Shown in pieces: positions 19,628-45,599 of a DNA stretch of 47,287 bases (position 1 is the stretch's first letter; each line of letters begins with the position of its first letter). Made by a program: the position numbers and the translations under genes. The stretch spans positions 1 through 47,287 of the forward strand of contig JAFZOG010000015.1 of NCBI GenBank assembly GCA_017550745.1, in the 5' to 3' direction. This DNA comes from Clostridia bacterium (GTDB taxonomy: Bacteria; Bacillota; Clostridia; Christensenellales; Aristaeellaceae). The notes beneath the pieces are model-generated. The model was not told the origin of the DNA. It was given only the letters and a program-made list of their open reading frames with translations, and ran no database searches.

Positions 19628-21220
19628 GTGAAAAAGCTGACTGCCCTTATTCTTTGCCTGATGCTTTGCGTGGGCCTGATGCCCGCAATGGCCGAGGGGA
19701 ACGCGGTGCGCATCGCGTTCGGCTATGACCCCAATACCCTGGACTATGCCATGAGCAACCTGGACACCGCCAATTTCATTCTGACCCATATCGCCGAGAC
19801 CCTGCTCGTTCAGGACGCTACCGGCGCGTATGTGCCCGGCATTGCCGAAAGCTATGAAAAAAGCGAGGACGGCCGGGTGTGGACCTTCAAAATCAAGGAA
19901 GGCCTGACCTATCAGGACGGCGAAACAGCCATCACCGCCGCGGACCTGTTCTACGCCGCGAAGCGCCTGCTGGATCCCGCCGCGCCCAAGGACAATGCCA
20001 TCTTCTGGCTGGCCAATTCCGAAGCGTATTACGCCGGGGAAGTGTCCTTCGACGAAGTGGGCGTCAAATTGATCGACGACTATACCATCGAATATACCTT
20101 CACCAACCCCACCTATGAAAGCACCTTCACCGGCACCAGCCTGTTCGCCCCGCTGGAGGAAGCGTATGTGGAAGCCGGCGGCGAAATCTACGGCTCCTCC
20201 TCCTATCTGCCCCTGGCCAACGGCCCCTTCATGGTGGAAGAATGGCTGGACGACGCTTCCGTGACCCTGGTGCGCAATCCTGCCTACCAGAACAAGGACA
20301 GCATCACCGTGGATGAAATCGACATTACCCTCAACGCCAGCGCGGACGTGGTCCTGGATATGATGCTGGCGGGCGAGCTGGACATTGCCTCCTTTAATGA
20401 TCCCCTGATGCTTCAGACCCTGGAGGACAGCGGCTTCGTAAAGGGCGAATCCTACTCCTCCACCTATCAAGGCCTGAACCTGCGGGGCGGCGGCCGGAAC
20501 GAAGAAACGGGCAAGTTCCTCTCCAACGCGAATTTCCGCCGCGCCATCAACACCGCCCTGGACCGTGAAGCCCTGGCCGCTTCCGTCATGACCGGCTATA
20601 CCCCCACCTGGCGCCTGAGCGCGCCCGGCGAGCTTGCCTACACCGCCAATCCCGATTACAAGGCTTGGGACACCACCGCCAACGTGGAGCTGGCGAACCA
20701 GTACCTGAACGCCGCCATGGAAGAGCTGGGCGTGACCAAGGACCAGATCCCCGTGATCCAGCTGATGTGCTATGAATCCCAAGGCGCGATCAACTCCCTG
20801 TCCGCCGTGCAGGATCAGCTGCGCGTGAACCTGGGCCTGGAAACCGAAATCACCCCCTGCACCATCCAGGTGATGATTTCCAACGCCATGAGCGGCAATT
20901 ACGACCTGTGGTGGGGCGGCAACGAAGCCTCTGTGCCCGACGCCTGCGAATCCTACCTGGACGGCTTCCGCTCCAACAGCGGCATGCCGCTGCGCGGCTA
21001 TGCCGACCCGGAATTCGACGCGCTGTATGAGGCCGCCGTGTCTTCCGCCACCCTGGAAGAACGCCTGAACAACTATGCCAAGCTGGAAGCCTACTTCTGC
21101 GAGAACGCCATGTGCATCATTCTGGGCTGGGACGCCCACTATATCGTGACCGCTCCCGGCACGGCCGGCTACTATCTCCTGGACGGCGGCCGCATCAATG
21201 TATCCCAGCTGACCAAATAA
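19628..21220 (+). CDS. oppA: Oligopeptide ABC transporter, substrate-binding protein
   Basis: Family 5 peptide-binding protein of 530 residues that captures extracellular peptides and delivers them to OppBC. It starts with a type I signal peptide (MKKLTALILCLMLCVGLMPAMA, cleavage before EGN). The SBP_bac_5 domain shows LLVQDATGAYVPGIAESYE, WTFKIKEGLTYQDGE, and the NFRRAINTALDRE hinge. There is no lipobox, so lipid anchoring by Lgt is not expected. The GTG start at 19628 follows GAGGAGGA; the longer frame from 19568 overlaps the promoter's transcription start. It opens an operon with four more transporter genes and three peptidases. Dipeptide or nickel specificity cannot be excluded, but the peptidases downstream favour peptides. 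Confidence 0.9.
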   Translation: MKKLTALILCLMLCVGLMPAMAEGNAVRIAFGYDPNTLDYAMSNLDTANFILTHIAETLLVQDATGAYVPGIAESYEKSEDGRVWTFKIKEGLTYQDGETAITAADLFYAAKRLLDPAAPKDNAIFWLANSEAYYAGEVSFDEVGVKLIDDYTIEYTFTNPTYESTFTGTSLFAPLEEAYVEAGGEIYGSSSYLPLANGPFMVEEWLDDASVTLVRNPAYQNKDSITVDEIDITLNASADVVLDMMLAGELDIASFNDPLMLQTLEDSGFVKGESYSSTYQGLNLRGGGRNEETGKFLSNANFRRAINTALDREALAASVMTGYTPTWRLSAPGELAYTANPDYKAWDTTANVELANQYLNAAMEELGVTKDQIPVIQLMCYESQGAINSLSAVQDQLRVNLGLETEITPCTIQVMISNAMSGNYDLWWGGNEASVPDACESYLDGFRSNSGMPLRGYADPEFDALYEAAVSSATLEERLNNYAKLEAYFCENAMCIILGWDAHYIVTAPGTAGYYLLDGGRINVSQLTK

Positions 21221-21288
21221 CATAAGAACGGGTTCTCAGGCGGATGCCTTGAGGATACGGATCGAAAACAGAACGAAAAAATCCAAAC

Positions 21289-21338
21289 GGGAGCCTGCCC
21301 ACCCCCACCTGCGGGCTGAGGCAGGCTCCCCGTCTTTT
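21289..21338 (+). terminator. Intercistronic hairpin / partial terminator between oppA and oppB
   Basis: An 11-base stem GGGAGCCTGCC (21289-21299) and GGCAGGCTCCC (21320-21330), with a GC-rich loop, followed by CGTCTTTTCT. Such hairpins after a binding-protein gene commonly protect its mRNA and reduce expression of the permeases. Confidence 0.75.
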
Positions 21339-21358
21339 CTGTGAAAGAGGTTCATTCC

Positions 21359-22288
21359 GTGGGCAAATATGTGCTGAACAAGGTCTTGATAGCCGTCGCC
21401 ACCGTTTTTGTGCTCGCAACGGCTACCTTTTTCCTGATGAAACTGATCCCGGGCGATCCCTTCGCCAACCTGAAAACCAAGGCGGCGGTGCAGGAAAAGC
21501 AGCGGGAATACTACGGCCTGGACAAGCCCGTCATGCAGCAGTATTTCCGGTATCTGGGCAATCTGCTCAAGGGCGACCTTGGCTGGAGCCTGAAAAAATC
21601 CGGCAGGAGCGTGGTGGACATCATCCGGGAAGGGTTTCCCGTGTCCGCGAAGCTGGGGCTGACCACCCTGTTTTTCAGCGTAATGATCGGGCTTTTGTTC
21701 GGCATACTGTGCGCCCAGTTCCGCAACCGATGGCCGGATTACCTGCTCATGCTGGTGGCGGTGCTGGGCATCGCCCTGCCCAGCATGGTGCTGGGGCCGC
21801 TGATGCGGTATTTCTTCGGCGTCCAGCTGAAGATCCTGCCGGTGGTGGGCTGGGGAACGCCGGATAAAATGATCATGCCTGCCATCGTGCTGGGCCTTGG
21901 CACCGTGGCGGGGGAGACCCGCGCCATGCGCGCCAGCATGCTGGGGGTCATGACCCAGGACTATATCACCACCGCGCGCGCCAAGGGCTTAAGCCCCGCC
22001 CAGGTGGTGGCGCGGCATGAAATCAAGAATTCCCTGGTGCCTATCGTCACCGGCCTTGGCCCCGGCATCGCGGGGATCATGATGGGCTCCTTCGTGGTGG
22101 AGAGCATGTTCCTGATCCCGGGCCTGGGCCGCTATTTCGTGGACTCCATCACCAACCTGGATTATCCGCTGATCATGGGGCTGACGATTTTTTACGGCGC
22201 ATTTCTGGTGACCATGAACCTGCTGGTGGACGTGGCGTACGGCCTCCTGGATCCCCGGATCCGGGAAAGCGCGAAAAAGGGGGCGTAA
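21359..22288 (+). CDS. oppB: Oligopeptide ABC transporter permease OppB/DppB type
   Basis: Inner-membrane permease of 309 residues with about six helices. The N-terminal FFLMKLIPGDPF and LDKPVMQQYFRYLGNLLKGD are typical of OppB/DppB. The cytoplasmic EAA loop reads around TTARAKGLSPAQVVARHEIKNSL, the contact with the ATPases. I choose the GTG at 21359, which has AGAGG about 8 bases upstream, over the GTG at 21341. The next gene begins four bases after its stop, so oppBCDF form one tight unit. Confidence 0.92.
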   Translation: MGKYVLNKVLIAVATVFVLATATFFLMKLIPGDPFANLKTKAAVQEKQREYYGLDKPVMQQYFRYLGNLLKGDLGWSLKKSGRSVVDIIREGFPVSAKLGLTTLFFSVMIGLLFGILCAQFRNRWPDYLLMLVAVLGIALPSMVLGPLMRYFFGVQLKILPVVGWGTPDKMIMPAIVLGLGTVAGETRAMRASMLGVMTQDYITTARAKGLSPAQVVARHEIKNSLVPIVTGLGPGIAGIMMGSFVVESMFLIPGLGRYFVDSITNLDYPLIMGLTIFYGAFLVTMNLLVDVAYGLLDPRIRESAKKGA

Positions 22289-22291
22289 GGG

Positions 22292-23233
22292 ATGGAAAAA
22301 GTGTCGCCGGAACAAAACCTTTTCCGGCCGGATGATTTTGACCGGCTGCCCCCGCCGTCCCAGACAGACGCTGCCATCACCCGGAAGCAGACCTCCTATT
22401 GGCAGGACGTGTGGCGCACCTTTAAGAAAAACCGCACCGCCGTCATCAGCCTGTGTGTCATCGCGCTGCTGATCCTGATGGTGCTCATCGGCCCCATGCT
22501 GAACGTGTTTGACTACCGCACCAACGATTACAGCGCCTTGAACCAGCCGCCCAATGCCGTGCATTGGTTCGGCACGGACAATATGGGCCGTGATATCTGG
22601 ACCCGCGTGTGGGAGGGGGGACGGATCTCCCTGCTGATCGCCGTGCTTGCCACCCTGATCCCCGAGGCGATCGGCATGCTGATCGGCGGCGTATCGGGCT
22701 ATTTCGGCGGCTGGCTGGACACGCTGATCATGCGCTGCATCGACGTGTTGATGGGCATTCCCAGCCTGATTTACATGATCCTGCTGATGCTGGTGTTCGG
22801 CTCCGGCAGCGTGATGACCCTGATCGTGGCCATGAGCCTCACCGGCTGGATGGGCGCCGCCCGCGCCACGCGGGGCCTGGTGCTCCAGATCAAGGCCCGG
22901 GATTTCGTCACCGCGTCGGAGACTCTGGGCGCGCCCGCCTGGTGGATCATCATCAAGCGCCTGATCCCCAATACCCTTGGCATCCGGGTGGTGGGCATCA
23001 CCATGAGCATCCCCAGCGTGATCTTTTACGAAGCGTTTCTGAGCTATATCGGCCTGGGCGTCACCCCGCCCACGCCCTCCTGGGGACAGCTGATCAAAGC
23101 AGCGGGGGAAAACTTCCGGTATTATCCTTATCAGTTCATCATTCCCTGCGTGATGGTGGGCATCACCATGCTGTGCTTTAACCTGGTGGGCGACGGCCTA
23201 AGGGACGCGCTGGATCCGAAATTGAGAGGGTAA
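22292..23233 (+). CDS. oppC: Oligopeptide ABC transporter permease OppC/DppC type
   Basis: Second permease, 313 residues. A soluble N-terminal arm precedes the first helix (TAVISLCVIALLILMVLIGP). The OppC hallmark HWFGTDNMGRDIWTRVWEGGR (split over residues about 90-110) precedes the transmembrane core, and the EAA loop is near DFVTASETLGAPAWWII. It pairs with OppB to form the channel. Confidence 0.93.
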   Translation: MEKVSPEQNLFRPDDFDRLPPPSQTDAAITRKQTSYWQDVWRTFKKNRTAVISLCVIALLILMVLIGPMLNVFDYRTNDYSALNQPPNAVHWFGTDNMGRDIWTRVWEGGRISLLIAVLATLIPEAIGMLIGGVSGYFGGWLDTLIMRCIDVLMGIPSLIYMILLMLVFGSGSVMTLIVAMSLTGWMGAARATRGLVLQIKARDFVTASETLGAPAWWIIIKRLIPNTLGIRVVGITMSIPSVIFYEAFLSYIGLGVTPPTPSWGQLIKAAGENFRYYPYQFIIPCVMVGITMLCFNLVGDGLRDALDPKLRG

Positions 23234-23237
23234 GGCC

Positions 23238-24269
23238 ATGGCGGAAAAAGTTTTGGACGTGAAAGACCTGAATGTCACCTTTGAGACCTACCAGGGCAGC
23301 GTGCAGGCTGTGCGCGGCGTTTCGTTCCATGTGAACCGGAAAGAAACAGTGGGCATCGTGGGGGAATCCGGCTGCGGGAAGTCGGTGACCATCCGCACGG
23401 TCATGGGCCTGCACCAGAAAAGCCCCGGCGCGGTGATGCGCGGCGAAGCGCTGTTCGAGGGCCGGGACGTGCTGAAAATGAACGATAAAGAGATCATGGA
23501 CATACTGGGGAACCGCATGTCCATGATCTTTCAGGACCCCTTTACTTTCCTGAACCCTACCATGCAGGTGGGCCGCCAGATCACCGAAACCTACCTGCGC
23601 CATCACCGGGTAAGCGGCAGGGAGGCCCACGAAAAAGCGCTGTCCATCCTGCGGCTCATTTCCTTCCCCAATCCGGAGCAGAACATGAAGCGCTATCCCC
23701 ACCAGCTCTCCGGCGGCATGCGCCAGCGCATCATGATCGCCATGGCGCTGATCTGCGAGCCGGCGGTGCTGTTTGCGGACGAGCCCACCACAGCCCTGGA
23801 CGTGACCATCCAGGCCCAGATCATCGACCTGATGAACAGCCTGAAGGATAAGACGGATACCTCCATCGTGCTCATCACCCATGATATGGGGGTGGTGGCG
23901 AAGATGGTGGACAGGCTGTATGTGATGTACGCCGGCAAGATCGTGGAGCATGGCAGCGCCGACGCCCTGTTCCACCGCCCCCGGCATCCCTATACCTGGG
24001 GCCTGCTGGACAGCGTGCCCCGGCTGGACGAAAGGACGAAGGAAGAGCTGCACTCCATTCCCGGCATGCCGCCGGATCTGATCGACCCGCCAGCCGGCTG
24101 TCCCTTCGCGGCCCGGTGCCGGTACGCCATGAAGATCTGCCAGCGGCAGATGCCCAGCCAGTTTTCGCTTGACGGGGAGGGCCACGCGGCGGCCTGCTGG
24201 ATGTGCCACCCGGAATATGTGGAACGCTTTGGAGAAACAGGCAGGGAGGGCAGGCAGAATGAAAAATGA
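23238..24269 (+). CDS. oppD: Oligopeptide ABC transporter ATPase OppD/DppD type
   Basis: ATP-binding protein of 343 residues. Walker A is GESGCGKS (about 38-45), the signature is LSGGMRQR, Walker B is [13 protein letters not shown], and a switch His follows (ITHDMG). The C-terminal extension holds the Oligo_HPY region with a four-cysteine set ([14 protein letters not shown]...C) that in this group can bind an iron-sulfur cluster. It drives transport together with OppF, whose start codon lies 11 bases inside this gene. Confidence 0.94.
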
Positions 24270-25224
24270 GCAAGCCGCGCCTTTGATGGAGCTCAGGGAC
24301 GTGAAGACCTTTTTCAAGGTGCCGGGCGGCACGCTGAAAGCGGTGAACGGCGTCAGCCTGACCATCCGGGAAGGGGAAACCATCGGCCTGGTGGGGGAAT
24401 CCGGCTGCGGCAAATCCACCCTGGGCAAAACGATCCTGCGCCTGATCCGGCCCGCGGGGGGCCAGGTGCTGTTTGGGGGCCGGGACATCTGGAGCTTTCG
24501 CAGGGCGGAAAGGAAAGCGTATACCCGCCAGGTGCAGATGATTTTTCAGGATCCCTACGCCTGCCTCGACCCGCTCAGCGTGATCGGGGATACGGTGGCG
24601 GAGGGGATGGACATCCATCGCCTGAACGCGGACAGGCAGCAGCGCGGCCGGGAAATCCTGCGCCTCCTGAATGACGTGGGCCTGAACGAAACCCACGCCA
24701 GCCGCTTCCCCCACGAGTTTTCCGGCGGGCAGAGGCAGCGGGTAGGCATCGCCCGGGCATTGTCCCTGCAGCCGCGCCTGATCGTTTGCGACGAGCCGAT
24801 TTCGGCGCTGGACGTATCCATCCAGGCCCAGGTGGTGAACCTTTTGAAGCGCCTGCAGCGGGAAATGGGCATGGCGTATCTGTTCATCACCCACGACCTT
24901 TCCATGGTGCGCCAGATATCGGACAGGATCGCGGTGATGTATCTGGGCAGCATCGTGGAGATCGCGGACAGCGAGGACATTTACTTGTCCAACCGGCATC
25001 CCTATACCAAGGCGCTTTTATCCGCCATTCCCATCGCCGATCCGGCGGTGGAAAGAACCAGGGAGCGCATCGTGCTCTCCGGCGACGTGCCGAGCCCGGT
25101 GAATCTGCCCAAGGGCTGCGCCTTTGCGGGCCGGTGCCCCAACGCCTGCGATAAATGCAGGGAGGCCGCGCCGGTCCTGCGGGAGATCGCGCCGGGGCAT
25201 CAGGTGGCCTGTCATATGGTCTAA
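24259..25224 (+). CDS. oppF: Oligopeptide ABC transporter ATPase OppF/DppF type
   Basis: Second ATPase, 321 residues. Walker A is GESGCGKST, the signature is FSGGQRQRVGIARAL, Walker B is LIVCDEPISALD and the switch is ITHDLS. The C-terminal cysteine-rich Oligo_HPY tail (CAFAGRCPNACDKC) is present. The start at 24259 follows GGGAGGG; the longer frame would overlap oppD by 100 bases. The first S9 peptidase starts 13 bases after its stop, so import and digestion genes are in one transcript. Confidence 0.94.
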   Translation: MKNEQAAPLMELRDVKTFFKVPGGTLKAVNGVSLTIREGETIGLVGESGCGKSTLGKTILRLIRPAGGQVLFGGRDIWSFRRAERKAYTRQVQMIFQDPYACLDPLSVIGDTVAEGMDIHRLNADRQQRGREILRLLNDVGLNETHASRFPHEFSGGQRQRVGIARALSLQPRLIVCDEPISALDVSIQAQVVNLLKRLQREMGMAYLFITHDLSMVRQISDRIAVMYLGSIVEIADSEDIYLSNRHPYTKALLSAIPIADPAVERTRERIVLSGDVPSPVNLPKGCAFAGRCPNACDKCREAAPVLREIAPGHQVACHMV

Positions 25225-25237
25225 ATGGGGGGCGGCA

Positions 25238-27202
25238 ATGAAAAAAAGGCTGTGTGAGGAAGACTTGCGGCAGGTCGTCTGGCTGTCGGAGCCGGAGCTT
25301 TCGCCGGAGGGGGACAGGGCGGCGTATACCCGCGCCGTAAGCGATGACCGATCCGGAAAAAATATTCCCCGGGTGATGGAGGTCTCCCTGCCGAACGGGG
25401 AGGCCCGCCCCGCCTCCGAAACGACGAAACGGCAGCATATGCCCCGGTACAGCCCGGACGGGGCTTATTTGGCGTTCCTGTCGGACGACCACAAGGTGGA
25501 CCGGCTGTATGTGAAGGAAATCAAAACGGGGCAGGAGCGGGAAATAACGGGCTTTTCCGTTTCGGAGTACGCCTGGAGCCCGGACGGGCGGCGCATCGCC
25601 GCCTGTGTTCCCCTGCCGAAGGACCGGCGGGGAAACCCGATGGCAGTGACAAACGAAGCGGAATACGACGCCTGGCGGCGGGAGATGGATCACGCGCCCC
25701 GATTTACGGAAGCGCTGATGTATAAGCTGGACGAGGCCTTCGGCTTCCTGGACGGAAGCGGCGCCGCGCTGTATCTGATCGACATTCCAACCGGCGGCGT
25801 CCGCCCTTTGTTTAGCGAAGACAATCCCATCGCGTCCCCCGCCTTTTCCGCAGACGGTGAAAAAATCTATTGCTTCTGCCGGCTGCACAGCCGGGAGGAA
25901 TCCCTGAAATGGACGATCATCCGCTATGATCCGGCCACGGGAAGCCGCCGTGAAATACCGGCGAAGCATGCTGTCAGCGCGGGTGTGCCGGTGTTTGAAA
26001 AAAACGGCAGGCCCGTGTACGCCGGTTACAGCGAAGAAACGAACCGGACGGAGCTGTTCCTGGTCGATGAAAATGCAGACCGGGACATTCCGCTCCTTTC
26101 TCCGGACGGCTGTGAGGGCGTGGACCCCGCAATCATCGGGGACGACAGAAACGGCGGTATGGGCTGTCCCGTCCGGACGGACGGGCAGGGGAATATCTAT
26201 TTCCTCAGCGGGAAAGACGGGCGAATGTTCGTGTCCGATATCGCGGGGAAGGAAGCGCTGTCTGGCGGCTGCATCCAGGGCTTTTCCGCGCCGGAAAGGG
26301 GCAGCGCCGTATTTCTGCGGAGTTCCTCCGTTCATCCCGGGGAGCTGTACCTGAAAAATATGAATACCGGGGAGGAAACCCGGCTGACCAGGGACAATGA
26401 CTGGATACAGGATTACGGCGCGGCGCAGCCTGAAAAAATCACTGTGGAGCAGGATAGCCACACCGTTCACGGCTGGGCGCTGCTGCCTGAGGGAAGCGAA
26501 GCGTGCCCGGCGGTGCTGTACATTCACGGCGGGCCGGAATGCTTTTTTGGCGAGGACATTTTCTTTTTTGAAGCCCAGTCGCTGCGGGCGGCGGGTTTTG
26601 CCGTGCTGTGGTGCAATCCCCGGGGCAGCGCCGGTTATGGCCCGGAATACCTGAAGGGCGCTTACGGGCAGGAGGCCGTGGACGATCTCATGGGCTTTGT
26701 GGACGCCTGCCTCGCCCGTTATCCCCGCATCGACGGGAAGCGCCTGGGCGTGACCGGCGGCAGTTACGGCGGTTACATGACCAACAAGCTCACCCTAAAA
26801 ACGGACCGTTTCCGGGCGGCTGCCGCCCAGCGCACCTGGATCGACCCCGCCACCTCCTACGGCACCGGCGATATGGGGTTCATGTCCGGCAGCGGGAAAA
26901 CGGATTTCCGGGAATACATGCTGAACCGCGCCCAGGGCAGCATTTTGCGGGATATCCGGAAGCTGCATACCCCCACCCTGATCCTGCACGGGGAAAAGGA
27001 CGTGCGCTGCGGGGAGGAGCAGGCCGACCAGCTGTTCAACGTGATTCGGGCGCTGCGCCCGGAGGTGCCCTGCCGCCTGGTGCTGTTCCCCGGCGAGAAC
27101 CACGGCCTGACCCGGACGGGCCTGATGCATCACCGCATCCGGCACATGCTGGAAATCAGGCAATGGATGGAAAGATTCCTGGGAAAGGAGGACGCCCCAT
27201 GA
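25238..27202 (+). CDS. S9 family serine peptidase 1 (acylaminoacyl-peptidase/prolyl oligopeptidase-like)
   Basis: Cytoplasmic peptidase of 654 residues that should cut short peptides, often after proline or at blocked N-termini. Residues about 1-400 are WD40-like propeller blades (repeated 'YSPDGAYLAFLSDD', 'AWSPDGRRIAA'), which restrict access to small substrates. The alpha/beta-hydrolase domain has the triad S509 (GGSYGGYM), D588 (HGEKDVRC) and H622 (ENHGLTRTG), with the oxyanion-side YIHGGPE. No signal peptide. It directly follows oppF and overlaps the next S9 gene by ATGA. The ribosome site GGGGGG is poor, which suggests coupling to oppF translation. Confidence 0.9.
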   Translation: MKKRLCEEDLRQVVWLSEPELSPEGDRAAYTRAVSDDRSGKNIPRVMEVSLPNGEARPASETTKRQHMPRYSPDGAYLAFLSDDHKVDRLYVKEIKTGQEREITGFSVSEYAWSPDGRRIAACVPLPKDRRGNPMAVTNEAEYDAWRREMDHAPRFTEALMYKLDEAFGFLDGSGAALYLIDIPTGGVRPLFSEDNPIASPAFSADGEKIYCFCRLHSREESLKWTIIRYDPATGSRREIPAKHAVSAGVPVFEKNGRPVYAGYSEETNRTELFLVDENADRDIPLLSPDGCEGVDPAIIGDDRNGGMGCPVRTDGQGNIYFLSGKDGRMFVSDIAGKEALSGGCIQGFSAPERGSAVFLRSSSVHPGELYLKNMNTGEETRLTRDNDWIQDYGAAQPEKITVEQDSHTVHGWALLPEGSEACPAVLYIHGGPECFFGEDIFFFEAQSLRAAGFAVLWCNPRGSAGYGPEYLKGAYGQEAVDDLMGFVDACLARYPRIDGKRLGVTGGSYGGYMTNKLTLKTDRFRAAAAQRTWIDPATSYGTGDMGFMSGSGKTDFREYMLNRAQGSILRDIRKLHTPTLILHGEKDVRCGEEQADQLFNVIRALRPEVPCRLVLFPGENHGLTRTGLMHHRIRHMLEIRQWMERFLGKEDAP

Positions 27203-31190: not shown

Positions 31191-31370
31191 TCTTGATCCC
31201 TCCTTCAAATCCCGATCGGCATTCCTGGGCGGAGCAGCCGCAGGATGCGCGGCCGGAGGTAATCGACCTGGTGCATTGGAACAGCAGGCCGTGCGCCGAA
31301 TCCTCTTTGCCCTGACCACCGCCATCGACCCATCCATGACGAAATGCCAAAGGAAGGAAGGCTAAACCTC

Positions 31371-32384: not shown

Positions 32385-32397
32385 CCGGCTTTTCTTC

Positions 32398-34371: not shown

Positions 34372-34388
34372 CCCGGGCTTCCTCCTTT

Positions 34389-36371
34389 TTACGCCAGATA
34401 GCGCTTGAACCAATCCACGATTTCCTCAAGATGCCGCACCTGGGCTTTCATGTTGCCGGTGCGGGTGAGGGCATGGTTTTCCTTGGGAAACATCACCAGC
34501 CGGACGGGAACTTCCGGGTGCCTTTCCCTGAGGGGAATAAAGATCTGCTCCGCCTGCTCGAAGGAGCAGCGGTAATCCCTGTACCCGTGCAGCAAAAGCA
34601 GCGGCGTTTTGATCTGATCCACCCGGCTGGCGCTGCTGCCTTTGGCGCGGTTTCGCAGATAATTCAGCATGGAAAAGCGTTCCGGGATCCCGCCGGATGA
34701 AATCCACCCCATATCGCCGGTGCCGTAGGAGGTGGCGGGATTTGCCAGAATCCGCTGCCCCGCGGCGGCGGCAAAGAAATCCGTTTTGCTGATGAGCTTT
34801 AAGGTCATGTACCCGCCGTAGCTTCCGCCGGTGACGCCGATGCGGTCCCGGTCCGCGATGCCTCGGTTCACGGCGTCCAGGCACATGTCGATCAGGTCGT
34901 GCATGGCTTCGTCCTTCCAGCATATGCCGTCCGCGCAAAAGCCCCGGCCAAAGCCCGCGCTGCCCCGGGGATTGCCGTGGATCACCGCGAAACCGGCCGC
35001 CGACAGGGCGTGGAACTCGTGCCAGTAGGCGTCTGCGTACATGGTTTCCGGCCCGCCCTTGATGTCCAGCACAGCGGGATAGGCTTTCCCCGGCGCATAG
35101 TCCTTCGGCAGGGTAAGATAATAGCGCAATTCCGCTTTTCCGTCCCTGGAAGGAACGGTGTATTCCCGGGTTTCCGGCGGCGCGAAATCGGAAAGCCAGG
35201 CATGCTCGTCCGTGAGCCGCCGCCCGTCCACATACAAATCGGCAGGCGCCTGATCCGTACCGGAAAGAACCGCCAGGCTTCCTTTTTCATTCATGGCAAA
35301 GCCCAGGATGTCCTTAAAAGGGAGCGCCAATTCCCGGATCTCTTTCGGGCTGTCCGGCGATACGGAGCACAGCTTCGTTTTCCCTTCGTGGGCCGAAAGG
35401 AAAACCACCCTGTCCTTCAGCAGCGAAAAACAGGAGGCGTTTTCCCCGTTTTCCGTGCGCCCGACGACGGCTTCGCCGACGCCGGAGCAGCAGGTATCCT
35501 CCGCCAGGTCGGGGATATAGGAAAACGCGCCTTTCTCCTTTAAATCAAAGCGGATCAAGGTCTGGGAACAACCGTCCCCGAACCGCTGGTACGCAAGTGC
35601 CCATAAGCTGTTTCCGTCCTCCGAAAAAACAGGGGACTGGGAGGGGAGATACAGTTGATCGGAGGCCGGGCAGGCAATAGGCTCTCCCTTCCGCCAGACC
35701 GCCAGCTCCGCCTGCCTGCCCTTCGCGCCACTGTGGGGATAGGAGAAAAAAGCGACGGTCTGTCCGTCCGGAGACAGGGCGGGAAGGACGGCCTCCACCC
35801 CGTCCAAAGGAAGCAGGAACGCGCCTTCGGGGCCGTACAGCCCCACCGTGGATTTCTCTCCCTTGCGCATCCCGAACCATTCGTCCATTTTATAGGCCAG
35901 GTCTTCGGCAACATAGGGACGCAGCGCCTGCTGGCTTTCCCAGGCTTCCTTTTCCTCGGGGCGCATTTCCTGAAATGCTGTCCCCGCCTGGATTTCCTCC
36001 GGCCACAAAGTGGCTTCGAAGGCGATGCTGCCGTTGGCTGTGTCAAAGTGGTTCACGCCGTGGCGCAGGGTGGTTTTCTGCTCCCTGCCGTTACCCGTCA
36101 CGAACCAGACCTGGTTTTCTCCCGAAGCGTCGGAAAGCAGGGCCAGGGCATTGTCCGGCAGGAAGCGGGGCTGGGATTCATGAACGCCGTTGGGGGATTC
36201 ATAAACGACGCCGCCCTTTTCCGTTTCCATCACCCGCACCCGGGGGCGGCACACGCCGTCCGCTTCCGGCTTTTTGACCACAACGGCGGCGAGCTTTCCG
36301 TTCGGGGAAAGCTGAGGCCAGGATAAATAGGAGAACCGTCCTGCATCCTGCGGCGTAAAAGATTTCTTCAT
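34389..36371 (-). CDS. S9 family serine peptidase 4
   Basis: Cytoplasmic S9 peptidase of 660 residues, upstream neighbour of peptidase 3 with a 17-base gap. A propeller half (LSWPQLSPNGKLAAVVV, ALSPDGQTVAFFS) is followed by a hydrolase domain with the triad S517 (GGSYGGYM), D599 (HGYRDYRC) and H633 (ENHALTRTG). Its triad loops are nearly those of peptidase 1 in the opposite operon, so the two may be the closest pair among the four. The start at 36371 has AAAGGA about 8 bases upstream; a longer frame extends into the metallopeptidase gene. Confidence 0.9.
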   Translation of the reverse strand: MKKSFTPQDAGRFSYLSWPQLSPNGKLAAVVVKKPEADGVCRPRVRVMETEKGGVVYESPNGVHESQPRFLPDNALALLSDASGENQVWFVTGNGREQKTTLRHGVNHFDTANGSIAFEATLWPEEIQAGTAFQEMRPEEKEAWESQQALRPYVAEDLAYKMDEWFGMRKGEKSTVGLYGPEGAFLLPLDGVEAVLPALSPDGQTVAFFSYPHSGAKGRQAELAVWRKGEPIACPASDQLYLPSQSPVFSEDGNSLWALAYQRFGDGCSQTLIRFDLKEKGAFSYIPDLAEDTCCSGVGEAVVGRTENGENASCFSLLKDRVVFLSAHEGKTKLCSVSPDSPKEIRELALPFKDILGFAMNEKGSLAVLSGTDQAPADLYVDGRRLTDEHAWLSDFAPPETREYTVPSRDGKAELRYYLTLPKDYAPGKAYPAVLDIKGGPETMYADAYWHEFHALSAAGFAVIHGNPRGSAGFGRGFCADGICWKDEAMHDLIDMCLDAVNRGIADRDRIGVTGGSYGGYMTLKLISKTDFFAAAAGQRILANPATSYGTGDMGWISSGGIPERFSMLNYLRNRAKGSSASRVDQIKTPLLLLHGYRDYRCSFEQAEQIFIPLRERHPEVPVRLVMFPKENHALTRTGNMKAQVRHLEEIVDWFKRYLA

Positions 36372-36382
36372 GCTTCGTCCTT

Positions 36383-37759
36383 TCAGCGGATCGCCCATTG
36401 ATAGGACACCGCGTCCTTCCCTGTATCAGCCTCCCGGGCGGTGACGGGCGAAAGGGTGAACAGGCCGTCAAAGCTGTCGGGATCCGGGGCGAAGTGTCCG
36501 CCCCCATGCATCAGCCGCCATTGTTCCGACACGTCGATATCCGCCGTTTCCTGCACCGCCCGCAGGAACGCTTCGTTGCCCAAAGCCTCGTTCCGCCTGC
36601 CCATCTCCAGCAAAGAGAGCACCACGTCGTCCAGGCTTTTTTGCCCTTCTGTCGCCCGCCGGATTTGGGCGTCCACGCCGGCCAGGAAGAAAATGCCCCG
36701 CCCATAAGCCAGCCGCTGGGCGCGCCGATCCTGCCAGCAGATCTTTGCCGCTTCCGCATCGCTCAGATGCCGGGTGGGATTGGTGTAATAATCCGCAGTG
36801 CGCTTTTGGATTTCGTCCAGGGCCTGCGCTTTGGTAATGAGGCCCGCCCGCAGCGGGATCATGATGGAATAGTATTCCGCCGTGCCTTCTTCATACCAGG
36901 TGGTTTCGCCGTACGGCTCATCGTTCAGATGGGGCCAGTTGTGCACCATTTCATGGGCCAAAAGGTTCTGCTTTTCCGCTATGGACACGCGCTGGGTATC
37001 GTTCCAGCCGAACATATAGCAGCGCTGCAGGGCCGTGCCCCCGCTGGAAACGGTGCGGTCATGGCTCATGAAAACCCGGTACACGGCCTGGTCGTCCCGA
37101 AAAAAGCGCCGCATGATCCCGTAAAGCTTTTTCACATACTCCGCCAGGGCAGCGGCATCGAAAGGAGGCTCATCCTGCCAGTACATGCCGAAATCCCCTT
37201 CGGTGACGGACCGCAGCGGGCCAAAGGCGTAATAGATCTGGCGCAGGCAGTCCAGGCTTCCTTCCCTGTCCGCGTCTCCTTCGCCCCAAGCGCAGACGGC
37301 CCGCGCGCCTTCAGGCATCCGGGACAGGTCCCAGCGCAGGAAGATCTGACCCCGCCAGTCCGGAACATCCATGAGGAACGAAAGCCCAGGCCCGGCAGCA
37401 CCGCCCCCTTCCCTGCTGAAATGGAAATAGGGCCCATGCCTGCCTTCGCAGGGCTTTTCACCCGGGATGGCGGAATAGCGGATGGTCAGCCCGCCCCGAA
37501 GCTCCCGCCCGGCGGCCCAGTGCAGAAACACCATGGGGTAGGGCGCTGTTTCGGCCATCATCAGCGGCAGAGGCCCCAGGTCATCCGCGGCAGTTACGTT
37601 TTCGATCTTTGCCGCCGGAACCGAAACGGTGCTGCGCTGAAAGGCGAAAAGCTCCTGCCCGGCTTTCCTGTTTAAGCCGTCAACCTTGTACAGCACCTCC
37701 ACCTTTTCCACCTGCCCGCCCCTGAAAACCGGCGTCAGGGTGACGCTGCACCCGCTCAT
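36383..37759 (-). CDS. HExxH metallopeptidase, M61/M1-like (gluzincin)
   Basis: A 458-residue protein with the zinc motif H269-E270-x-x-H273 (LLAHEMVHNWPHL) and a downstream acidic ligand at E290 or E291 (WYEEGTAEYY). This HExxH + EG arrangement is that of gluzincins; the N-terminal beta-rich part (about 1-180, with VEVLYKVDGLNRKAGQELFAF) resembles the M61 glycyl-aminopeptidase layout. No signal peptide or membrane segment. It probably acts as an aminopeptidase. It overlaps the cyclodeaminase-family gene by ATGA, so it is translationally coupled. The exact family is not certain. Confidence 0.78.
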   Translation of the reverse strand: MSGCSVTLTPVFRGGQVEKVEVLYKVDGLNRKAGQELFAFQRSTVSVPAAKIENVTAADDLGPLPLMMAETAPYPMVFLHWAAGRELRGGLTIRYSAIPGEKPCEGRHGPYFHFSREGGGAAGPGLSFLMDVPDWRGQIFLRWDLSRMPEGARAVCAWGEGDADREGSLDCLRQIYYAFGPLRSVTEGDFGMYWQDEPPFDAAALAEYVKKLYGIMRRFFRDDQAVYRVFMSHDRTVSSGGTALQRCYMFGWNDTQRVSIAEKQNLLAHEMVHNWPHLNDEPYGETTWYEEGTAEYYSIMIPLRAGLITKAQALDEIQKRTADYYTNPTRHLSDAEAAKICWQDRRAQRLAYGRGIFFLAGVDAQIRRATEGQKSLDDVVLSLLEMGRRNEALGNEAFLRAVQETADIDVSEQWRLMHGGGHFAPDPDSFDGLFTLSPVTAREADTGKDAVSYQWAIR

Positions 37760-38697
37760 TTCACGGCCTCCTGATACACCAGCTTTGCCGCGGCGATATC
37801 CTCCACGGCCAGCCCCAGGGCGTCAAACAGGGTGATTTCCGCGTCATTCTTACGCAAAGGGGCTTTCCCAAGCAGCGCCTCGCCCAGGGAGCCCACGATG
37901 TGGTTTTCCCCGATCAGGCCTTCACGCAGCGGGATCAGGTATTCGCCGCTTTCCTTCCGGCAGGCCGGGGTATGATCCGCGTACAGCCGGGAGGCGGCCA
38001 CCAGGTCGGACGCCGCTTCCCGGGTGACGGGGGAAAAGGTGCCCACGGCGTTGATGTGAGCGCCCGGCTTCACCATGGCTTTGGTCAGGTAGGCTTCTTT
38101 GGCGGGGGTCAGGGTACAGATGATATCCGCGTCCCGGACGGCGTCCTGCACGCTGTCCATGATTTCCACAGGGAGGCCGTATTTCGTTTCCGCTTCCTGC
38201 CGGAACCTTTCCGCCGCGGCCCTGCTTTGGTCGTACACCTTTACCCGTTCGATCTTCCTGACCAGCCGGATGGCGGCCAGATGGGAACGGGCCTGGGCCC
38301 CCGCGCCGATCAGCGCCAGGAGGGGGGCGTCCCTGCGGGCCAGCAGGTCGGTGGCCACGGCGGAAACGCAGCCGGTGCGTATTTCCGTGACTGAGCCCGC
38401 CTCGATCAGCGCTTTCACGGTGCAGTGCCCGCTTTCAAACAGCATCACATAGCCGATGTGGGAGGGGTACTGGGTGCCCATATTGGGCGCGTAAGCAGCG
38501 ATGACCTTCGCGCCGAAATAATCCCCCACATAAGCGGGCATAAAGCCGAAGGCGGCGGTGTTGGGCATTTTGCAGATCAGCCGCTGGGGCATGTCGCATT
38601 TTCCGGCCTCCAGATCCATCAAAGCTTTACGCATGGCGGCGATGCACCTTTCAGGGGTCAGAATGGCTCTGACCTGTTGTTCTTCGATCACCAGCAT
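37756..38697 (-). CDS. Ornithine cyclodeaminase / mu-crystallin family NAD(P)-dependent enzyme
   Basis: A 313-residue enzyme with a Rossmann fold marked by LIGAGAQARSHLAAIR and VKVYDQS, a substrate end with LICKMPNTAAFGFMPAYVG, and DIICTLTPAKEAYLT later on. The family holds ornithine cyclodeaminase, alanine dehydrogenase, cyclic ketimine (pyrroline-2-carboxylate, lanthionine-type ketimine) reductases and siderophore enzymes, which sequence alone does not separate. In this operon a ketimine or pyrroline reductase handling peptide-derived residues is plausible. The start at 38697 shares a base with the stop of the PLP gene (TGATG) and has GGAAGGAGAG upstream. The longer frame is rejected. Confidence 0.82.
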   Translation of the reverse strand: MLVIEEQQVRAILTPERCIAAMRKALMDLEAGKCDMPQRLICKMPNTAAFGFMPAYVGDYFGAKVIAAYAPNMGTQYPSHIGYVMLFESGHCTVKALIEAGSVTEIRTGCVSAVATDLLARRDAPLLALIGAGAQARSHLAAIRLVRKIERVKVYDQSRAAAERFRQEAETKYGLPVEIMDSVQDAVRDADIICTLTPAKEAYLTKAMVKPGAHINAVGTFSPVTREAASDLVAASRLYADHTPACRKESGEYLIPLREGLIGENHIVGSLGEALLGKAPLRKNDAEITLFDALGLAVEDIAAAKLVYQEAVK

Positions 38698-39869
38698 CAC
38701 GATCTCTCCTTCCAAGCATTTTCTAAATCTTTGAGCGCTTTTTCCACGCACCGGGCGGGGGAAGCGACGCACATGCGGATGAAGCCCGGCGCGCCGTAAG
38801 CGCTGCCGCCGTCCACATGAAAGAACGCCTTTTCATACAGAAAATCCAGCATTTCCCCTTCGTTTCTAAAATGGGGCCGCAGGTCCGTCCACAGCACATA
38901 GGCCCCTTCGCCGCCGTACACGCGCGCCTTGGGGAACAGCCGGGCGAAGGCCTCCCGCACCAGGCGGATGTTTTCTTCGCACACCCGGTTGGAGGCCCGC
39001 ACCCAGTCCAGCCCCTCGGGGCTGTACCCGGCCAGTACGCACTCGTAGGCCAGGGGGTCCATGCTGCCGTAGTGATCTCTGGTGCGGCGGTCTGAAAAAG
39101 CCTCCCGGAAGGCCGGGTTTGGAATCAGCAGGTTGGCGTGGTTCAAGCCGGTCAGGCCGAAGGACTTGCCCAGGGAAGTGGCGACTGCGGAAAACTCCCT
39201 TGCCTCCGGGACGGAAAGGAGGCTGGGGCAGACCCGGCCCTGATAGCAGGTATCCGCGAAGATTTCATCACAGAAGATGCGTACGCCGCGCTTTGCCGCC
39301 ATCCGGGCGATGCGGGCCAATTCTTCCGCTGTCCAGATCTGGCCGATGGGATTGTGGGGATTGCACAGCGCCATCAGCTTCACCCGGGGATCGGCCAGCG
39401 CCCTGTCCAGGGCCTCAAAATCAATCGCGTACCTGTCCGGCTGCTGAATCAGCGGGCAGGTAACCACGGGCCGGGAAAGCCTGTCCGCCGCCTGGGCAAA
39501 GCGGTTGTAAATGGGCGGCATCACCAGCAGCGCGTCCGTTTCCCCGGGGCAGAGGAGGCGGAGCATGGAGGCCAGGGCATGGATGGTACCCAGCGTCGGC
39601 ACGATCCAATCCGGCGATATGTCGACGCCCCTGCTGTTTTTCAGCCACCAGCCCACTGCCCCGCGATAGGCGTCGTCCGCCACGGTGAAGCCGAACAGCC
39701 CGTTTTCCGCCAGGCGTTTGATGGCTTCCCGGATGACCGGCGCGGTGGGATAGTCCGGCTCCGCCCCGTCAAAGCTCACGTTTCCGTGGGCCAGCACCGC
39801 ATTCGGGGTGAACATGCGCTTCAGGTTCGACGGCGGCCGGGCGACCACCGAATCAAAATCATAAGCCAT
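38697..39869 (-). CDS. PLP-dependent aminotransferase / C-S lyase, PatB/MalY type
   Basis: Fold-type I PLP enzyme of 390 residues. PLP-binding residues are visible: N170 (CNPHNPIGQIW), D201 (IFCDEIFAD) and K235 (TSLGKSFGLTGLNHAN). The start (DFDSVVARPPSNLKR) and the PDYPTAPVIREAIKR-GLFGFT stretch are typical of PatB/MalY, many of which are cystathionine beta-lyases that cleave C-S bonds to pyruvate, ammonia and a thiol, although aminotransferases occur too. It overlaps the amidohydrolase by 11 bases and the reductase by one. In context it may process sulfur or thioether residues released from peptides, which is inference. Confidence 0.85.
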   Translation of the reverse strand: MAYDFDSVVARPPSNLKRMFTPNAVLAHGNVSFDGAEPDYPTAPVIREAIKRLAENGLFGFTVADDAYRGAVGWWLKNSRGVDISPDWIVPTLGTIHALASMLRLLCPGETDALLVMPPIYNRFAQAADRLSRPVVTCPLIQQPDRYAIDFEALDRALADPRVKLMALCNPHNPIGQIWTAEELARIARMAAKRGVRIFCDEIFADTCYQGRVCPSLLSVPEAREFSAVATSLGKSFGLTGLNHANLLIPNPAFREAFSDRRTRDHYGSMDPLAYECVLAGYSPEGLDWVRASNRVCEENIRLVREAFARLFPKARVYGGEGAYVLWTDLRPHFRNEGEMLDFLYEKAFFHVDGGSAYGAPGFIRMCVASPARCVEKALKDLENAWKERS

Positions 39870-41097
39870 ACTGCACCTCAGGCATTTCCTTCTGGATTGT
39901 ACCGCCGATCAGCACCATCTTCACATTGTCCGCGCATGCGAGGGTCAGGATATCCGAAAGGGGATCCCCCTGCACCATCACCAGGTCGGCCAGTTTGCCC
40001 GCTTCCACCGTGCCGATTTCCCCCTCCCTGCGCATGAGCCTGGCGCCGTTGATGGTGCCCGCCCTGATGGCTTCCATGGGCGTATAGCCGCAGCGGGTCA
40101 GGCTGTAAAACTCCCTGCCGATTTCGCTGTAGGGGGTGTTGGGGCTGTTGGAATAATCGGTGCCCAGCGCCACGGTAATGCCGTATTGCCGCGCCAGCCG
40201 GAAGGAGCGCATGGCGGCTTCTTTGATCCCCTTGGCTTTGCGCAGCATGTGGGGCGGCAGGTCCTTCATATCGGCCAGCCCCAGCGCCACGCTCAGGGTG
40301 GTGACCAGGGGCACGCTGTTTTCCTTCATGATTTGGCAGCATTCCTCGTCCAGCATCACGCCGTGCTCCACGCATCCGATGCCCGCTTTCAGCGCCGCCT
40401 TGGTGCCCGCCGTGCCGGTGCAGTGGGCGGTCACGTAGGTGTTGTGGCGTTTGGCTTCGCCGATAATCACCTTCAGCTCTTCCTCGGAGAACTCCTGGTC
40501 GTTGTAATCGTCGATGGCGGAGGATACGCCGCCGGTGGCGCAGATTTTGATAAACTCCGCCCCTTCCCGGAACTGCTGCCGCACGCCCCGGTAGCAGTCC
40601 TCCGGGCCGTCCATCATAAAGCCGGTCAGGTCTTCCCGGTTGCACTGGGCCACGGGCCTGGTCACGTCAAAATCGCAGTGGCCGGAAGAGATACTCAGCA
40701 CCCTGCCGCCCACCATGATCCGGGGCCCCTTGATATTGCCCTTGCCGATGGCGTCCCGCAGGGCGCGGCCAAAGGCGCTCATATCCCGAACGCCCGTCAC
40801 GCCGGCGTCTACCAGATCGGATAAATCCCTTACGACGGTCAGCAGGAGATCATAGGGCGTTTCGCCGCTGCGGTGGACGCTTTCCGTGCCGGTCAGGTGG
40901 GCGTGGGCGTCGATAAAGCCCGGCAGGATCGTGGCGTTTTCACAGGTATATACGGCGGCGTTTGCCGGGAGGGCGGCGTTTTCCCTGGGACCCGCGTAAA
41001 CGATCTTCTCGCCTTCGATGATCACCGCGCCGTTTTCAACCGGCTTTTCAGCCACGGAATCAATGATCCGGCCCAGCAAAACCTTGACTTCATTCAT
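39859..41097 (-). CDS. Prolidase-like metal-dependent amidohydrolase
   Basis: Amidohydrolase-superfamily enzyme of 412 residues. The binuclear metal site is readable: H65 and H67 (DAHAHL), the bridging carboxylated lysine K184 (FIKICATGG), H225 (VTAHCTG), H245 (VEHGVM) and D314 (GTDYSN). The overall form matches the imidazolonepropionase-like / Xaa-Pro and Xaa-Arg/Lys dipeptidase group, which cleaves dipeptides in the cytosol. No signal peptide. It is second in the minus-strand operon, 16 bases after the S10 gene, with GAGGGGG upstream of the ATG. A cyclic amide hydrolase role is the main alternative. Confidence 0.85.
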   Translation of the reverse strand: MNEVKVLLGRIIDSVAEKPVENGAVIIEGEKIVYAGPRENAALPANAAVYTCENATILPGFIDAHAHLTGTESVHRSGETPYDLLLTVVRDLSDLVDAGVTGVRDMSAFGRALRDAIGKGNIKGPRIMVGGRVLSISSGHCDFDVTRPVAQCNREDLTGFMMDGPEDCYRGVRQQFREGAEFIKICATGGVSSAIDDYNDQEFSEEELKVIIGEAKRHNTYVTAHCTGTAGTKAALKAGIGCVEHGVMLDEECCQIMKENSVPLVTTLSVALGLADMKDLPPHMLRKAKGIKEAAMRSFRLARQYGITVALGTDYSNSPNTPYSEIGREFYSLTRCGYTPMEAIRAGTINGARLMRREGEIGTVEAGKLADLVMVQGDPLSDILTLACADNVKMVLIGGTIQKEMPEVQYGL

Positions 41098-41113
41098 GGG
41101 ACTTCCCCCTCTC

Positions 41114-42505
41114 TCACGCTTCGATCATCTTTCGCACGTCGGCAAGGAACTGTTCCTTCCCTTCCGGGCTGGAATACACGCCGTGGCCTCCCGGATATTC
41201 CCGCGCGAGGACGCGCTCCTTCGGCAGCCCCGCGTGGGAAATGAGATACCGGGTGTATCCCGCGTGGGTGCACAGGTCGTACAGGCCGGAGGCAAACAGC
41301 GCCTGCATGTCCGGCGTACGCTCCATGCCGTCCCGGAGGCAGTCCAGATGGGTTTTCCTGTATTCCCCCACGTCCTCGGTTTCCATGCTGAACTGGACAT
41401 TCACATTGATGTTGCCCGTGTAGTAGAGCCGGGCGGCGTCCACGCCGAGGGCGGGCAGCAGCAGCCCGTTCATCACCTGCAGGGGGACGTTATCGCTGCC
41501 CAGCAGGCGATAGGCCGCGTCCGCCGGGGTCTTCATCCGCGCGTCGTACAGGTCCAGGGTATAGCCTGGCAGCGCCTGTTTCTGGAAATCCTCGGCGCTC
41601 AGAACCCTTAGGCCGGTGCGCAGGAAATACGCTTTCGGCATGCCGGTGTACTTTTCCAGCAGCTTCGCGCAGCGCTGCTTTTCCTCCGGAGAAACCCCGT
41701 CGCCCGCGTACAGCGCCACCAGCAGCCGGGTCCTGGCGAAATCGCAGGCGGCTTGCACAAATTCCGCCTGGCCGCAGGGCTTTTCGTCCATATGATACCA
41801 ATGGGTGGCGGCCATGGCGGGCATCATGGAAAGGGAAAGATCCAGCCGGCTTTCTTCCACCGCCAGGCCGATCAGCACCGCGCCTTTGACCGGGATCCCC
41901 GGCACCATCCGGCTTTCGGAATAAGGGCTGCGCCCCAGCTCCGCGATCACCCGGCAGGCCCGCACCGTGCCGTAGCTTTCGCCGGTGATATAGATGGGGC
42001 TGTTCCAGCGCTGGCGCCGCCGCAGCCATTCGATGATCAGAAAGGCCGCGCTGCGGGCGTCCCCGTCCACGCAATAATACTTCTTCGCTTTCTCCGGGTT
42101 CAAAAGCCGCGACAGGCCCACCCCCACGGGATCGACAAACACCAGGTCGCATACGTCCAGCAGGCAGTCCGGGTTTTCCGTAAGGCCAAAGGCCATGGCC
42201 CCGTTTCCGTCCCGCTTGATCAGCCAGGGGCCGAAGCATTCCAGATGCAGGATGGAGGTGGCGGAGCCGGGGCCCCCGTTCCACAGGAACATGACCGGGC
42301 GCGATTCATTTTTCGGCCGATGCGCCAGGTAGGAGATGGAAAACAGAGCCGCCTCCGGCTCGCCGTCCGGGCCGCGGAACACGAAGTCCTCCGATATGCT
42401 CGTGAACTGCACAAGGCCGCGCCTGAGCAGGATTTCATGCTGCCGCTCATAGCAGCCGGGAGTAAAATCCTCTGTGGAGAAGGGTTCGGGAAGGGAATGG
42501 CTCAT
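41114..42505 (-). CDS. S10 family serine carboxypeptidase, cytoplasmic form
   Basis: First gene of the minus-strand operon, 463 residues. The S10 hallmarks are FLWNGGPGSAT (about 95-105), the nucleophile S177 (ITGESYGT), D410 (GLYDLC) and H441 (GGHGVYS). S10 enzymes remove C-terminal residues, some preferring proline at the penultimate site. Eukaryotic members are lysosomal or secreted, whereas this one has no signal peptide. The start at 42505 follows GAGGAGG; the frame extended to 42631 is rejected. Upstream 42506-42671 has no recognised gene, and I could not place a convincing promoter. Confidence 0.87.
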   Translation of the reverse strand: MSHSLPEPFSTEDFTPGCYERQHEILLRRGLVQFTSISEDFVFRGPDGEPEAALFSISYLAHRPKNESRPVMFLWNGGPGSATSILHLECFGPWLIKRDGNGAMAFGLTENPDCLLDVCDLVFVDPVGVGLSRLLNPEKAKKYYCVDGDARSAAFLIIEWLRRRQRWNSPIYITGESYGTVRACRVIAELGRSPYSESRMVPGIPVKGAVLIGLAVEESRLDLSLSMMPAMAATHWYHMDEKPCGQAEFVQAACDFARTRLLVALYAGDGVSPEEKQRCAKLLEKYTGMPKAYFLRTGLRVLSAEDFQKQALPGYTLDLYDARMKTPADAAYRLLGSDNVPLQVMNGLLLPALGVDAARLYYTGNINVNVQFSMETEDVGEYRKTHLDCLRDGMERTPDMQALFASGLYDLCTHAGYTRYLISHAGLPKERVLAREYPGGHGVYSSPEGKEQFLADVRKMIEA

Positions 42506-43031: not shown

Positions 43032-43060
43032 TTGACACGAAGAAAAAAAGCGTGTATAAT
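43032..43060 (+). promoter_or_regulatory. Consensus sigma-A promoter of the amino acid transporter
   Basis: TTGACA (43032-43037) and TATAAT (43055-43060) match consensus exactly at 17-base spacing, with TG just before the -10. Transcription should start near 43067, giving a short leader ahead of CGGAGG and the binding-protein ATG at 43094. Confidence 0.85.
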
Positions 43061-43093
43061 TTTCACCGAAATAAAGAAACGGAGGCAATTCGT

Positions 43094-45580: not shown

Positions 45581-45599
45581 AAAGGAGGAAATGGAATAG

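Follow-up and report, generated by a model that had tools for sequence, protein, structure and literature searches.

We analyzed a 47,287-nucleotide stretch of DNA (the window) from a Clostridia bacterium. The genome (3.75 Mb, 186 contigs) is 88.8% complete with 7.45% contamination, and the window is its contig C19. Between positions 19,628 and 42,505 it carries a real, conserved peptide-catabolism cluster, in which an oligopeptide importer is encoded together with a set of peptidases, a pyridoxal 5'-phosphate (PLP) enzyme and a reductase of the ornithine cyclodeaminase (OCD)/mu-crystallin family. The genes are given below with their supporting matches; several starts (OppF, S9a-d, M14, S10) were picked by eye.

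19628..21220, plus strand: OppA-like peptide-binding protein (SBP_bac_5, PF00496, 199 bits; hydrophobic N-terminus)
21341..22288, plus strand: OppB permease (BPD_transp_1, PF00528, 136 bits)
22292..23233, plus strand: OppC permease (PF00528, OppC_N)
23238..24269, plus strand: OppD ATPase (ABC_tran and oligo_HPY)
24259..25224, plus strand: OppF ATPase (ABC_tran and oligo_HPY; open reading frame listed from 24169)
25238..27202, plus strand: S9 peptidase a, accessory module (PF00326, 116 bits; triad motifs)
27199..29094, plus strand: S9 peptidase b, accessory module (PF00326, 99 bits; triad motifs)
29084..30772, plus strand: M14 metallocarboxypeptidase, accessory module (PF00246, 135 bits; aligns with carboxypeptidases)
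30756..31190, minus strand: AAC(6')-group-E-like acetyltransferase, outside the conserved set (NF043067, 186 bits, cut-off 140)
31344..32384, plus strand: GH130-family gene (PF04041, 144 bits)
32398..34371, minus strand: S9 peptidase d, common to most variants (PF00326, 117 bits; triad motifs)
34389..36371, minus strand: S9 peptidase c, common to most variants (PF00326, 120 bits; triad motifs)
36383..37759, minus strand: M61-like HExxH metallopeptidase (PF05299, 35 bits; PDB 7xyo, 2.4e-7)
37756..38697, minus strand: OCD/mu-crystallin family reductase (PF02423, 244 bits; closest PDB chain 6t3e)
38697..39869, minus strand: PLP enzyme, DEIF subfamily of the MalY/PatB group (PF00155; best PDB matches cystalysin and PatB)
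39859..41097, minus strand: COG1228-type amidohydrolase, dipeptidase-like (Amidohydro_1, PF01979, 175 bits; closest PDB entries 3mtw, 2qs8 and 3feq)
41114..42505, minus strand: S10 serine carboxypeptidase-like protein, accessory module (PF00450, 41 bits; alignment A1)

An initial annotation of this DNA had described two converging operons, but the arrangement in related genomes is a single one. In eight relatives (G023, G004, G034, G015, G027, G497, G552 and G455), as far as their contigs reach, the genes run in one direction in the order OppABCDF-S9a-S9b-M14-S10-amidohydrolase-PLP-OCD-M61-S9c-S9d, which we call type I. The two halves seen in the window are joined co-directionally in 8/8 of these genomes and M14 passes directly into S10 in every one; because of this junction, we read the halves as a copy of one operon whose arrangement has changed, either through a real inversion or through an assembly error. 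The acetyltransferase and GH130 genes between the halves were seen in the window copy only. Spacing is tight in G023, where 11 of 14 gene joints fall within -11 to +12 bases and the remaining three overlap more widely when the furthest upstream start is assumed. A D-aminoacylase-like gene, recognized by eye, lies divergent from OppA in that genome (L007 2830-4410, minus strand).

The initial annotation had staked its neighborhood of peptide import and digestion on conservation in related genomes. That neighborhood is conserved, and because the same genes recur in the same order in relatives, their grouping goes beyond chance; import and digestion likely form one functional unit. The cluster is patchily distributed: S10 (PF00450) was found in 6/60 genomes and the S10 protein of the window in 5/29 genomes of its own genus, its own genome being included in both counts. 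Searching named genomes with S10 gave at least six strong matches among those listed, all of them metagenome-assembled uncultured Clostridia and not additional to the relatives numbered here. They include a roe deer rumen bin, RUG13367 and "Christensenella sp. UBA4379", so at least one carrier of the cluster is from the rumen. The seventh listed match, from Burkholderiales (29%), had S10 only, without the cluster.

Pfam searches confirmed every gene that the initial annotation had named (Opp, four S9, M14, S10, the amidohydrolase and the HExxH peptidase). Its account of the second half was right about the peptidases and overlooked the PLP enzyme and the OCD-family reductase. An SBP_bac_5 protein, two permeases and two oligo_HPY ATPases lie in one run, and OppABCDF is a predicted oligopeptide ATP-binding cassette (ABC) importer of the Opp/Dpp family, peptide binding being likewise a prediction. 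Catalytic motifs are present in all window peptidases and in the amidohydrolase, as had been claimed, and the peptidases also appear to lack signal peptides: their N-termini are not hydrophobic by Kyte-Doolittle hydropathy, the one method used (no signal-peptide predictor was applied), with a best 15-residue value of at most 1.15 compared with 2.73 for OppA.

The S9 proteins of the window and of the relatives aligned carry the GGSYGG, D and H motifs, apart from an S9a copy in a short frame in G570 that is without the serine motif. Ten S9 matches were found in the window's own genome, and the four strongest all lie in the cluster. None of the S9 proteins qualified as an Atxe2 lasso peptide isopeptidase (NF033523; best 84.6 bits, cut-off 400). 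M14 has the H..E, H, NR and E motifs. The S10 protein has ESYG and GGH motifs with the Ser and His residues in place and scored 41.4 bits with PF00450 (cut-off 21.9) at partial coverage; it had no match among PDB sequences at 0.001, and its AlphaFold2 model (mean predicted local distance difference test score, pLDDT, 43.6) was left out of the fold search. The M61 protein carries HEMVH...E and scored 34.9 bits with PF05299 (cut-off 22), a copy in genome G830 falling slightly under that cut-off (20.9 bits); in alignment, its plasmid homologues have a C-terminal extension that is missing from the window protein. An HxH, Lys, His, His, Asp metal site is found in the 10 amidohydrolase copies aligned, in agreement with PDB alignments, its last residue being missing only from a cut-off copy in G613. 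The amidohydrolase scored below the cut-off of the Xaa-Pro dipeptidase model (NF051886; 288.4 bits, cut-off 500).

A profile search with the PLP enzyme across 250 genomes of the family gave 37 matches (7 very strong, 13 intermediate and 17 weak), and neighborhoods were examined for every intermediate match and for three of the weak ones. The very strong matches are type I clusters as far as the contigs reach. In each of the 20 genomes with a PLP enzyme of this subfamily another cluster gene adjoins it; OCD was seen in 19 of them and the importer lies on the same contig in 15. The three weak matches (G545, G599 and G568), all with a DEIH motif, have no adjoining cluster gene, and PLP homologues in general were rejected as cluster members.

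With one locus from elsewhere in the phylum (G830), there are 14 variant loci, 13 of them in the family, which all have the PLP enzyme; the importer is seen in 12 and OCD in 12. What is exchanged among them is peptidases: S9 pairs, M61, S10/M14 and TldD/TldE. Four variants (G427, G605, G615, G510) combine the importer, PLP, OCD and M61/S9c/S9d genes with a divergent amidohydrolase, G615 having a gap between PLP and OCD, and three (G020, G428, G476) have the order PLP-OppABCDF-TldD-TldE-OCD. TldD/E digests unfolded peptides without sequence preference, according to the available part of the source (PMC5810440), and could for this reason replace the S9 enzymes. G500 holds the importer, PLP, OCD, S9c, S9d, amidohydrolase and TldD/TldE together. 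Tandem S10 genes occur in G613, G561, G570 and G551, with M14 beside them in all but G561, whose contig ends at that point; in G561 and G570 the importer and the PLP or S10 genes are partly on separate contigs. Several family members have tandem S10 genes that are diverged: at loci L088, L090, L091 and L092 one copy is 58-64% and the other 29-32% identical to the window S10, and at L094 both are 30-33% identical. G540 has PLP-OCD on a 5.4 kb contig, and in G830 we found Opp, amidohydrolase, M61, PLP and two S9 genes. Pfam confirmed TldD/TldE (G500, G428, and TldD of G476), a gamma-glutamyltransferase gene adjoining the amidohydrolase in G561, and a GntR regulator in G500; TldD/E of G020 was confirmed by BLAST. 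The G830 cluster has MocR-like and YheO-type regulators inside it (L102 13595-15749), which may control it.

S10 is closely tied to the PLP enzyme. Strong S10 matches (E <=1e-186) were found in 11/250 family genomes, and all 11 are among the 20 with strong or intermediate PLP matches (hypergeometric 3.5e-14, assuming that the same 250 genomes were drawn and ignoring relatedness); in three of the 11 (G551, G561, G570) the two genes are on separate contigs. Nine of 17 family genomes with weak S10 matches were examined and had no cluster at the S10 gene; an M14-like fragment lies 8.5 kb from the weak S10 in G435 and an OppB-like fragment about 5 kb away in G617. A generic association of S10 with such genes was rejected, as five further loci taken from 66 plasmid S10 records were all without the set. 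M61 alignment A4 matched 1/396 genomes of the order, the window's own, and A5 matched only the window genome and G830 among 249 phylum genomes; because A4, A5 and the PLP alignment A6 contain genomes that they then matched, those self-matches are no evidence. OCD homologues were present in 7/299 phylum genomes including the window's own, and three of the six others (L103-L105) were without the cluster. A search for M61 on phages gave no match.

Among solved sequences, cystalysin and PatB-type lyases come nearest to the PLP enzyme. Its AlphaFold2 model (pLDDT 78.8) best matches PatB and cystathionine lyases in fold, with template modeling (TM) scores of about 0.83-0.88. Alignment A6 has D201, K235 and R365 invariant, which we take to be the pyridine-binding Asp, the PLP lysine and the substrate Arg. 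Its sequence sets the enzyme apart as a subfamily of its own within the MalY/PatB group, and together with the model this makes it a putative enzyme of the C-S lyase kind.

The OCD protein belongs to its family by a wide score (PF02423, 243.7 bits, cut-off 24), and its closest solved chain is the pyrroline-2-carboxylate reductase 6t3e. It lacks a mark of true ornithine cyclodeaminases. No copy printed has Asp at the GxD place, the sequence there being mostly GTFSP or GTFTP; we take the catalytic Asp of cyclodeaminases to lie in this motif. In the same comparison an alanine dehydrogenase chain has GAD and the pyrroline-2-carboxylate reductase chain is without the Asp too. At 54-83% identity to the window copy in 20 genomes, the OCD protein is the steadiest protein across variants, whereas among the intermediate matches identity drops to 37-40% for the PLP enzyme and 25-55% for OppA; we therefore place it at the metabolic heart of the cluster. 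G510 has a second OCD homologue (L159 18292-19251, plus strand; 48%) directly after the amidohydrolase.

We favor, with moderate confidence, a mobile catabolic cluster in which peptide import and cytosolic digestion feed a PLP enzyme and then an imine reductase acting on one type of residue. OppABCDF would import oligopeptides, and S9, M61, M14, S10 and the amidohydrolase (TldD/TldE in other variants) would cut them to amino acids in the cytosol. The MalY/PatB-like enzyme would then act on one class of released residue, and the OCD-family enzyme would reduce the resulting imine, or cyclic ketimine, with NAD(P)H. The most likely chemistry would be beta-elimination from a beta-substituted alanine such as an S-substituted cysteine, to give 2-iminopropionate and then alanine. 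We infer the import specificity, the cytosolic location of the peptidases and the coupling of PLP enzyme to reductase.

Several observations weigh against this scheme. The PLP enzyme scored below the cut-off of the PatB C-S lyase model TIGR04350 (230.6 bits, cut-off 340). All 23 cluster copies have DEIF compared with DEIH in 21/21 other homologues (18 from the phylum and the three weak family homologues without a cluster), and 22 of the 23 have Phe for Tyr in the GY motif, G615 keeping Tyr; both positions presumably contact the cofactor, by comparison with aspartate aminotransferase. Because of these changes and the score, C-S lyase activity is not assured. Among the loci, G020, G428 and G476 have no amidohydrolase and no S9 gene in the stretches read, no OCD gene turned up in the 55 kb of the G830 contig that was read, and in G551 only the amidohydrolase adjoins PLP, with 2.4 kb of unrelated genes at the usual place of OCD.

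The initial annotation had instead proposed specialization on proline or blocked ends, for which we found no direct evidence. In its fuller form this explanation has the cluster using proline- or hydroxyproline-rich peptides (collagen, casein, gluten) through S9 and prolidase-like steps, with OCD as a pyrroline-2-carboxylate reductase. The closest solved chain of OCD is indeed such a reductase, and Xaa-Pro dipeptidase is the best NCBIfam model for the amidohydrolase; however, that score lies far under its cut-off, and among solved structures an arginine carboxypeptidase stands just as near. The chosen genes given to Pfam included no match to a proline racemase/dehydratase or a hydroxyproline epimerase (the whole genome was not searched), and the PLP enzyme would be left without a role. 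A precedent exists in Colwellia BB5, whose collagen cluster of about 15 genes joins oligopeptide uptake and intracellular (imino)dipeptidases, prolidases among them, to a pyrroline reductase/ornithine cyclodeaminase (PMC7883544, from the part available). Both clusters thus have oligopeptide uptake, intracellular peptidases and an OCD-type reductase, but a secreted M9 collagenase, a hydroxyproline epimerase and other hydroxyproline genes are found in Colwellia only, and neither a PLP enzyme of the present type nor the S9/S10/M61 set is named for it in that part of the source. Collagenase and hydroxyproline catabolic genes were absent from the window genes given to Pfam, a search that did not extend to the whole genome. 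On balance we regard proline-rich substrates as unlikely.

The order of a PLP enzyme followed by an OCD-family reductase is also known from plants, where ALD1, a class I/II PLP enzyme, precedes SARD4, a reductase of the OCD/mu-crystallin family. The plant pathway is biosynthetic, is without peptide import or peptidases, and uses a different PLP subfamily. By analogy, the PLP enzyme could be an alpha-aminotransferase on lysine or ornithine, with OCD turning the cyclic imine into pipecolate or proline by reduction. Reductases of this kind occur in the OCD family, and PLP adjoins OCD in type I, G427, G605, G613, G561, G570, G510, G540 and G500 and is near it in G615, but the two stand at opposite cluster ends in G020, G428 and G476, and it is C-S lyases, not lysine aminotransferases, that the PLP enzyme has as neighbors in sequence and fold. 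We consider this explanation improbable too.

The broad, redundant and interchangeable peptidase set would also suit general peptide nutrition, in which PLP and OCD are merely convenient nitrogen and redox partners and no special residue is involved; the diverged, cluster-linked PLP subfamily and the steady OCD speak instead for one defined chemistry and make this a poor prospect. Uptake and destruction of modified peptides (ribosomally synthesized and post-translationally modified peptides, RiPPs, or antimicrobial peptides), for resistance or scavenging of competitors' products, is very improbable: in its favor, TldD/E acts on a modified microcin precursor (PMC5810440, in the part available), C-S lyases could open thioethers and the S9 proteins weakly match the lasso isopeptidase model, but at best at 85 of 400 bits, and no RiPP maturation gene was among the genes given to Pfam (which were not every gene of every locus).

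The favored scheme, peptide digestion feeding a PLP enzyme and imine reductase, has a partial parallel in Staphylococcus hominis, which imports Cys-Gly-3M3SH through DtpT, trims it with the dipeptidase PepA and cleaves the product with the C-S lyase PatB (PMC7385124, in the part available). Peptide import, intracellular trimming and a MalY/PatB-type enzyme follow one another in both. There, however, PatB is a shown C-S lyase, PatB genes are said to be unlinked to amino acid gene clusters or operons, and the pathway, as that part of the source describes it, is without an OCD reductase.

More distant parallels came from plasmids, where M61 was found in seven records and three neighborhoods were examined. 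Streptomyces sp. NBC_01445 has Opp, an amino-acid permease, a class V PLP enzyme, amidohydrolase, S10, M20 and M61, and Novosphingobium sp. PP1Y has three S10 genes, a TonB receptor, two PLP enzymes, a permease, amidohydrolase, OCD and M61; the neighborhood in Sphingomonas insulae was without the set. It was M61, not S10, that led to the two loci of similar content. They share with the Clostridia an importer (Opp or TonB), S10, M61, an amidohydrolase and PLP enzyme(s), and in Novosphingobium also OCD, but their PLP enzymes are class V or distant class I, unlike those of the Clostridia cluster. A class V PLP gene also lies beside M61 in G510. Since the plasmid proteins are only 21-39% identical to those of the Clostridia cluster, these sets are possibly convergent and may show other phyla arriving at the same solution. 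No locus of this composition was found described in the open-licence full-text literature, in line with the initial annotation.

We compared the window with its relatives for signs of transfer. In fetched flanks, six relatives have only generic ABC ATPases in common with it. In GyrA, G015 and G023 are 90% identical to the window, a value that falls to 69% and 73% in G034 and G497, whereas identity of S10 (72-74%) and the amidohydrolase (81-83%) is equal across the two groups; G004 gave no GyrA match, and G027 and G552 gave fragments only. From this, the patchiness (5/29) and the differing flanks, we conclude that the cluster probably moves as a unit, by horizontal transfer. A tree of five cluster proteins is weakly in favor of this: the window groups with two species of another genus (96/99), the third, G552, falling elsewhere, and monophyly of the window genus is weakly rejected (approximately unbiased test, p-AU 0.041); the branch to the outgroup is long, and an earlier tree under the LG model was poorly supported.

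Around the cluster, a 41-bp palindrome near the right end of the inverted half (42932-42972) recurs at five places in the genome with at most three mismatches, and a similar hairpin was seen by eye at about 42697-42734. On the plus strand at 43052-46718 are genes for a cystine-type amino-acid ABC importer (SBP_bac_3, permease, ATPase) and, after them, an M20 peptidase gene; generic ATPase matches aside, these genes are absent from the fetched flanks of six relatives. Glycan genes at 849-4494 and 16865-18700 encode a PcRGLX-like protein, a DUF1961 protein and a GH67-like enzyme. Scans for promoters and terminators gave 2 promoter-like sites compared with a shuffled mean of 4.4, and 24 terminators compared with 16.5 (standard deviation 4.5).

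To our knowledge, peptide catabolism by uncultured rumen and gut Clostridia is poorly known, and the importer-PLP-reductase heart with its exchangeable peptidases offers a concrete candidate pathway. More tentatively, the cluster may be an undescribed modular and mobile system, with carriers in one family of uncultured Clostridia and in a remote branch of the phylum; at its heart a new PLP subfamily and an imine reductase would handle one unusual peptide-borne residue, such as a thioether, an S-conjugate or a cross-linked or similar residue. The altered motifs of the PLP subfamily may mean a reaction new to its relatives. Should a sulfur conjugate prove to be the residue, the cluster would matter for the release of thiols and for what becomes of drug or plant conjugates in the gut.

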